From the NCBI GenBank assembly GCA_944324115.1, contig CALUVB010000012.1, positions 1 to 64,000 on the forward strand: 64,000 nucleotides of DNA. The letters run 5' to 3'. This document shows positions 50,225 through 50,630 of the stretch, one piece after another. Each line of letters begins with the position of its first letter. Position 1 is the stretch's first letter. The position numbers and the translations under genes were made by a program. Source of the stretch: an uncultured Elusimicrobiales bacterium. Lineage in GTDB: Bacteria > Elusimicrobiota > Elusimicrobia > Elusimicrobiales > Elusimicrobiaceae. Under the pieces are notes generated by a model that was not told the origin of the DNA, did no database searches, and worked only from the letters and a program-made list of their open reading frames with translations.

Positions 50225-50252
50225 TTGACAAACAGCAAAATACGCTTATAAT
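50225..50252 (+). promoter_or_regulatory. Strong consensus promoter of the RNA gene
   Basis: TTGACA (50225-50230), 16-bp spacer and TATAAT (50247-50252): perfect consensus boxes and the strongest promoter seen in the window. Confidence 0.85.
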
Positions 50253-50257
50253 ACTAG

Positions 50258-50630
50258 TGAAGCTAGTCCCAAGCCGGGTGCGTGGGCAAAGGCAACTGCA
50301 AAGGAAGGAATGCGGGTAGGAAAGCGGACTGACCGGATGCAGGGCTGCAGCAACGAGCGGATGTGAGAGCCGCTGTTGCAGAGCGTATAAACAAGACGTT
50401 GCCGCAGGAGCCAGCGATGATGTAATTGAAGTGGCGCGGTGGTCGGCGGTAGGGTAGTGTGAAGACGTAGAAGCGTTTCGCGGAGGTTGATGTACATGGT
50501 TCGGCCTAAGCGGGGCGTGTGGTTGCCAAGGAATGCCTGGAATGTTAAGTCGCTTGGCTTGACTTAAAAAGGAAGAGTAAATGAAAGAGTCGACGTGAAC
50601 CCCCCGATGGAATATCGGGGGGTCTTTTTT
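50258..50630 (+). ncRNA. Candidate structured non-coding RNA, about 370 nt, family not recognised
   Basis: A consensus promoter and a strong terminator bracket about 370 nt with no long ORF. The sequence is purine-rich and rich in stems: ACTAG/CTAGT at the 5' end (about 50252-50266), GCAACGAGCGG with CCGCTGTTGC (50350-50379), TTAAGTC/GACTTAA (50545-50567) and the terminator. I looked for tmRNA (tag frame, CCA end), RNase P (GAGGAAAGTCC), SRP RNA (GGAAGGAAGCA), 6S and group II intron domain V and did not find them. It could hold a 25-codon ORF (50490-50567). It converges with the secreted-protein gene at 51120. Confidence 0.6.
50600..50630 (+). terminator. Terminator of the RNA gene
   Basis: CCCCCCGAT (50600-50608) pairs with ATCGGGGGG (50614-50622), followed by TCTTTTTT. 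Confidence 0.9.

Follow-up and report, generated by a model that had tools for sequence, protein, structure and literature searches.

The window (the whole 64,000-nucleotide stretch of DNA analysed) contains a gene for a structured RNA, provided with its own promoter and intrinsic terminator and, immediately before the latter, with a mini-ORF. The features of the locus are the following:

50225–50252, plus strand: sigma-70 promoter TTGACA-16-TATAAT (12/12 match).
50259–50630, plus strand: structured RNA of ~370 nt (z = −3.28; full-length homologues at 73–89% identity).
50270–50281, plus strand: 5′ strand of P1, the helix closing the body (pairs with 50549–50561 in the consensus of 9 relatives).
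50473–50518, plus strand: conserved hairpin, made of a lower stem and the top GGUUGA-[UGUACAUGGU]-UCGGCC (50485–50506); near-invariant in its upper stem and loop, covarying in the lower helix.
50546–50551, plus strand: UAARUC motif near P1, present in most homologues, including two without the hairpin core.
50549–50561, plus strand: 3′ strand of P1 (consensus of 9 relatives).
50570–50573, plus strand: Shine-Dalgarno AGGA (AGGA, AGGAG or GGAG 2–8 nt 5′ of the ATG in 49/49 homologues).
50581–50598, plus strand: mini-ORF ATG AAA GAG TCG ACG TGA (MKEST), with five codons in 52/55 homologues.
50599–50630, plus strand: intrinsic terminator and U tract, starting right after the stop codon; covarying stem.

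The consensus promoter with its 16-nt spacer, the strong terminator and the purine-rich composition described in an earlier note on this DNA were all recovered. The terminator stem (50599–50623) has 11 pairs, 7 of them G-C, and the RNA is 62% purine, with 36.8% G. Just 7 perfect copies of TTGACA-16..18-TATAAT exist in the 1.52 Mb genome (1,522,886 of its 1,527,951 bases were scanned; the 3′ end of 16S rRNA was not found in the scanned assembly). The strong, housekeeping-level expression suggested in the same note may be expected from the promoter. The RNA would begin at 50259, ~7 nt past the −10 element. A promoter of the form TTGAHA/TTGATT-16-TATA(C/A)T stands 5′ of 47/49 homologues, copies from the wider search counted, and its spacer is always 16 nt. 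Within the RNA, the ORF list has nothing of 60 aa or longer on the same strand, so the absence of a long ORF claimed earlier stands; the RNA is nevertheless not ORF-free, as it carries the 5-codon ORF with its Shine-Dalgarno at 50570–50598. The ORFs listed at the RNA are an antisense ORF of 83 aa and another one beginning at the terminator. The antisense ORF was rejected, as it has no Pfam match, its start codon is not conserved and its frame is interrupted in relatives; low C and T content keeps antisense frames open here.

The RNA usually lies 3′ of glyS and is followed by a convergent gene, and it is therefore considered a stand-alone gene. In the window, a type IV pilin-like gene (N_methyl, PF07963; 49601–50143, minus strand) sits between glyS and the RNA. 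Such pilin-like genes are variable at this site in other species, while the RNA is constant there.

Concerning known RNA families, a search of the whole window with the covariance models of Rfam 15 (4227 families), as the earlier note had suggested, gave no match at gathering score, in agreement with its view that the RNA belongs to no recognised family. Nothing credible appeared in the window at a relaxed threshold either, the best score being 22.6 bits versus a cut-off of 65. The signatures of tmRNA and RNase P, previously noted as missing, are indeed without matches in the window, where ARAGORN also found no tmRNA. Both genes are present elsewhere in the same genome (RNase P RNA on C13, 211 bits; tmRNA on C1, 126 bits), so that the RNA replaces neither of them. 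The length, the promoter and the closed fold would fit a divergent version of a housekeeping RNA (tmRNA, RNase P, SRP or 6S), but this reading is largely refuted already by the lack of an Rfam match and by the two genes found elsewhere, in a genome-wide search that covered these two; its probability is practically negligible. Two other loci were observed in passing. At L128:16422 (minus strand; G000:C1 about 176,400), another strong promoter, TTGACA-17-TATAAT, is followed by ~300 nt without a long ORF and by a strong terminator, which possibly represents another uncharacterised RNA. At L119:15262–15400 (G000:C20), a promoter-like site, ~90 nt that look structured and a terminator lie near tRNA-Gly and tRNA-Thr genes; this could be a small housekeeping RNA.

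Homologues were collected by several routes. A DNA search of 100 relatives returned the full-length copies listed above, all in the same genus, and partial copies in further species. A covariance model built from the 3′ domain of the RNA matched in 53/66 genomes of the genus, and 49 of these matches were judged genuine by inspection, while the other four (L081, L084–L086) turned out to be coding sequence or the usual terminators of protein genes. Inspection of the region 3′ of glyS in genomes without a genuine match yielded 6 more copies (G031, G015, G018, G045, G058 and G026), which brings the RNA to 55/66 species of the genus. Among the other 11 genomes, glyS was not found in five and the contig ends at or near glyS in another five; G038 alone has ~1.9 kb after glyS and lacks the RNA there. 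Outside the genus, the class-wide covariance search gave no credible match, the hits in sister genera and other families (L089–L097) being coding sequence or ordinary terminators; nothing similar lies 3′ of glyS in five sister genera (g12–g16), and no copy was found in viral contigs. A scan of ~85,000 species for the hairpin pattern returned 27 loci of Elusimicrobiales type from gut MAGs, including UBA1436, one of which (L226) stops before the ORF and is apparently on the same contig as L074. The scan also returned ten chance matches in other phyla, dismissed as the mini-ORF is missing from them.

The RNA has a predicted folding energy of −134.8 kcal/mol, z = −3.28, and none of 100 dinucleotide shuffles was equally stable. 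The consensus folds of two clades, analysed separately, present a multibranched body in which P1 joins the 5′ end to the stretch just 5′ of the ribosome-binding site, the P1 of the 13-sequence clade being equivalent to that of the 9 relatives. The conserved hairpin is located in the 3′ half of the RNA; a GGAGGUUGAU sequence within it was considered as an anti-SD-pairing site and rejected, since it is absent from the METSR clade. Compensatory changes affect 28/137 and 13/82 pairs in the two clade alignments. In a family alignment of 47 sequences, which was fitted to the covariance model and is thereby biased towards it, 8 pairs show changes on both sides, a number reached by 0/500 shuffles. The earlier description of a structured RNA is supported by its stability, which exceeds that of shuffles by 3.3 SD, and by these compensatory changes, which the collection of homologues proposed in that note brought to light. 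Judged by such comparisons, the RNA is a real, genus-specific structured RNA, because most species of the genus have a homologue, almost all homologues have a promoter with the 16-nt spacer, and many predicted pairs show compensatory changes. The earlier idea of a lineage-specific RNA of Elusimicrobiota holds as to lineage specificity, but the range is one genus of gut Elusimicrobiaceae (UBA1436 lineage) and not the phylum. The body varies strongly between clades, with RNA lengths of ~219–543 nt, and three divergent members (L250, L253 and L254) lack the hairpin core while retaining promoter, mini-ORF and terminator. A trans role shared by the bodies of all clades is therefore put forward below as a proposal.

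The most conserved part of the RNA, overlooked when it was first described as a structured RNA without a long ORF, is its near-invariant 3′ mini-ORF. In 55/55 copies the 3′ end consists of a purine-rich Shine-Dalgarno and a short ORF that starts with ATG and whose stop codon lies 0–5 nt before the terminator stem; the start codon was ATG in all 49/49 homologues where it was tabulated. The ORF has five codons in all but three cases, with four in one (L253) and eight in two (L082 and L254); where two ATGs are adjacent (L068, L079, L082, L248, L249 and L256), the count takes the second, better-spaced one. Its length is fixed even though the distance from hairpin to ATG, 75–112 nt, varies by almost 40 nt. 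Its sequence is not: 48 five-codon cases comprise 30 distinct DNA versions, the peptides (MKEST, METSR, MTPCN, MKGRP, MHSCN, MKVHS and others) have no common sequence, and the stop codon is TGA in 41, TAA in 4 and TAG in 3, with interchange even within related types (MKVHS-TGA, MKVQN-TAG, MKHHS-TAA, MKEEK-TAG). None of the 30 versions contains an in-frame stop (P = 0.005 by shuffling), and stops do occur in the other frames. For the landing region, single-sequence thermodynamic prediction gives 0.64 unpaired versus 0.35 upstream (median at the 96th percentile within its own RNA). As read from the sequences, selection is acting to maintain the start, the length and the stop of the mini-ORF and not the peptide, since the ORF DNA varies while the five-codon length persists and the three stops interchange. 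What the RNA needs is probably the landing of a ribosome rather than a product.

The same layout occurs in a second RNA (type B), found in 10 species of the genus, which has a different conserved core (CCGTTTCACGAGCCCGG...GGGAGATGGA...CGGCAA), no detectable similarity to the RNA of the window and no Rfam match. Its example L194:1501–1880 (see also L195–L202 and L192) has a TTGACA-16-TATACT promoter, ~300 nt, a terminal ORF of 5–6 codons and a terminator. The type B ORFs, of 5 or 6 codons, encode MKKAIS, MEKAIS, MEEAIS, MKKAK, MKRAT, MEKEK, MEQEK and MNQTK, the last one from a G028 member that was found by the model of the window's RNA (type A) and assigned to type B by short motifs only. In L194–L196, type B sits upstream of hydF. 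A DNA search found no type B in the genome of the window. Several genomes carry both types, among them G058 and G026 (L254 and L256 together with L198 and L199), so type B is not just a replacement for the RNA of the window. The repetition of the layout in a second, unrelated family argues for a function. In L194–L198, AAGGCG just 5′ of the mini-ORF and AAAGCG within it could both pair with a 5′ ACGCUU, a possible switch.

The explanation that we consider best, and to which we give an even chance, is that of a ribosome-docking RNA, that is to say, a single-copy, free-standing gene with a ribosome landing strip built into its 3′ end. What the sequence shows is a folded body closed by P1, an A-rich linker with a Shine-Dalgarno and ATG predicted to be exposed, and an unconserved five-codon ORF ending at the terminator hairpin. 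A ribosome would bind at the exposed Shine-Dalgarno and ATG. An initiation complex reaches to about +16 from the ATG with its leading edge, and five codons plus the stop make 18 nt; five codons would thus be about the minimum for loading a ribosome without first melting the terminator, since the edge of the complex meets the stop and then the hairpin. It would be the shortest ORF that allows both docking beside the hairpin and normal release, the pentapeptide being a by-product of docking. In the most speculative step, docking would bring the folded body to the side of the 30S subunit where the mRNA exits, there to regulate or sense translation.

Other interpretations of the mini-ORF have to be weighed against ribosome docking. 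The A-rich stretch 5′ of terminators can mimic a Shine-Dalgarno and an ATG, and the whole pattern might be chance within a conserved terminator region; yet its length is fixed despite sequence divergence, its stop codons interchange, and the similar frequency before unrelated terminators that chance predicts was not borne out, as among 616 terminators of the 1.52 Mb genome only that of this RNA adjoins a Shine-Dalgarno-led ORF of 3–12 codons (one chance ORF of 2 codons also abuts a terminator). We attach next to no weight to it. That the pentapeptide itself is the product, as a signal or inhibitor, would explain the strong conservation of the translation signals but not peptides without any shared sequence, and is very unlikely. 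Equally improbable is a leader in which translation of the mini-ORF blocks termination and turns on a downstream gene: an ORF beside an intrinsic terminator does resemble the parts of a leader-peptide attenuator, whereas past the terminator the next gene typically has the opposite orientation, the window has no convincing co-oriented gene there, the codons lack conservation and no alternative antiterminator was noticed.

The mini-ORF could also act only in cis, the ribosome tuning termination, or opening or protecting the terminator hairpin against exonucleases, so that the RNA level would be set by translation activity and the function of the body would be separate. The stop lies within 5 nt of the hairpin in every member and, given established footprint sizes, a ribosome terminating there would partly cover the terminator stem, which counts in favour of this possibility. 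There is a published precedent in a two-codon mini-ORF acting in cis, possibly via mRNA protection (PMC8708949). Taken alone, the cis effect leaves unexplained why a structured RNA gene needs a mini-ORF when other terminators of the genome do without one. We hold a trans role, with the ribosome as partner of the body, to be about evenly balanced between right and wrong, and a cis role, the tuning of the RNA's own 3′ end, to be rather doubtful.

Going further, and with somewhat less than even confidence, we propose a class of bacterial RNAs, of which one genus has at least two families unrelated in sequence, defined by a minimal "landing ORF" of 4–8 codons between a folded body and a terminator. 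Its functional form would be a complex of the RNA with a ribosome, for parking, for sensing or for delivery of the body to ribosomes, and not the free RNA or an mRNA. Bacterial structured RNAs are sorted as non-coding or product-coding; here an ORF is kept across a genus for its length and position alone, which suggests an RNA acting through ribosome engagement. The succession Shine-Dalgarno, ATG, mini-ORF and terminator is a recognisable pattern for seeking similar RNAs elsewhere.

A literature search, with most subscription papers outside its scope, found no description of such RNAs. The RNA is like tmRNA in being folded, in having a helix that closes it and in carrying a short ORF, but it has no tRNA-like domain or CCA end, and the tmRNA of this genome is normal. 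It recalls the attenuators trpL and tnaC by its short ORF near an intrinsic terminator, and differs from them in lacking a co-oriented downstream gene and conserved codons. Phage lambda bar contains a very short ORF whose translation matters and not its product. The same applies to the two-codon mini-ORF of axe-txe (PMC8708949). These minigenes lie in mRNAs or leaders, whereas the mini-ORF described here forms the end of a structured RNA and is followed by no gene. The dual-function sRNAs VcdRP, SgrS/SgrT and RNAIII are also RNA genes that carry translation signals. SgrS/SgrT and RNAIII encode functional small proteins. VcdRP encodes a functional protein of 29 aa (PMC8672173). The RNA of the window, in contrast, has five codons, and a conserved encoded protein, which marks dual-function sRNAs, is absent across its 30 ORF DNAs. 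With OLE, ROOL and GOLLD, as portrayed in extracts of PMC12286853, it shares being free-standing, strongly structured, lineage-restricted and of unclear function; it has no Rfam match to them, is usually shorter, and is single-copy, chromosomal and, as far as tested, not phage-borne. The same extracts discuss a ribosome link of OLE via RpsU and the binding of ribosomes by GOLLD in pull-downs, and report no terminal mini-ORF for OLE, ROOL or GOLLD (PMC12286853). The closest analogues are OLE and GOLLD, as large structured RNAs suspected of a ribosome link (PMC12286853), and minigenes that act in cis, such as that of axe-txe (PMC8708949). Neither kind is reported to unite, as the RNA of the window does, a free-standing folded RNA and a terminal ORF whose length is fixed and whose sequence is free.
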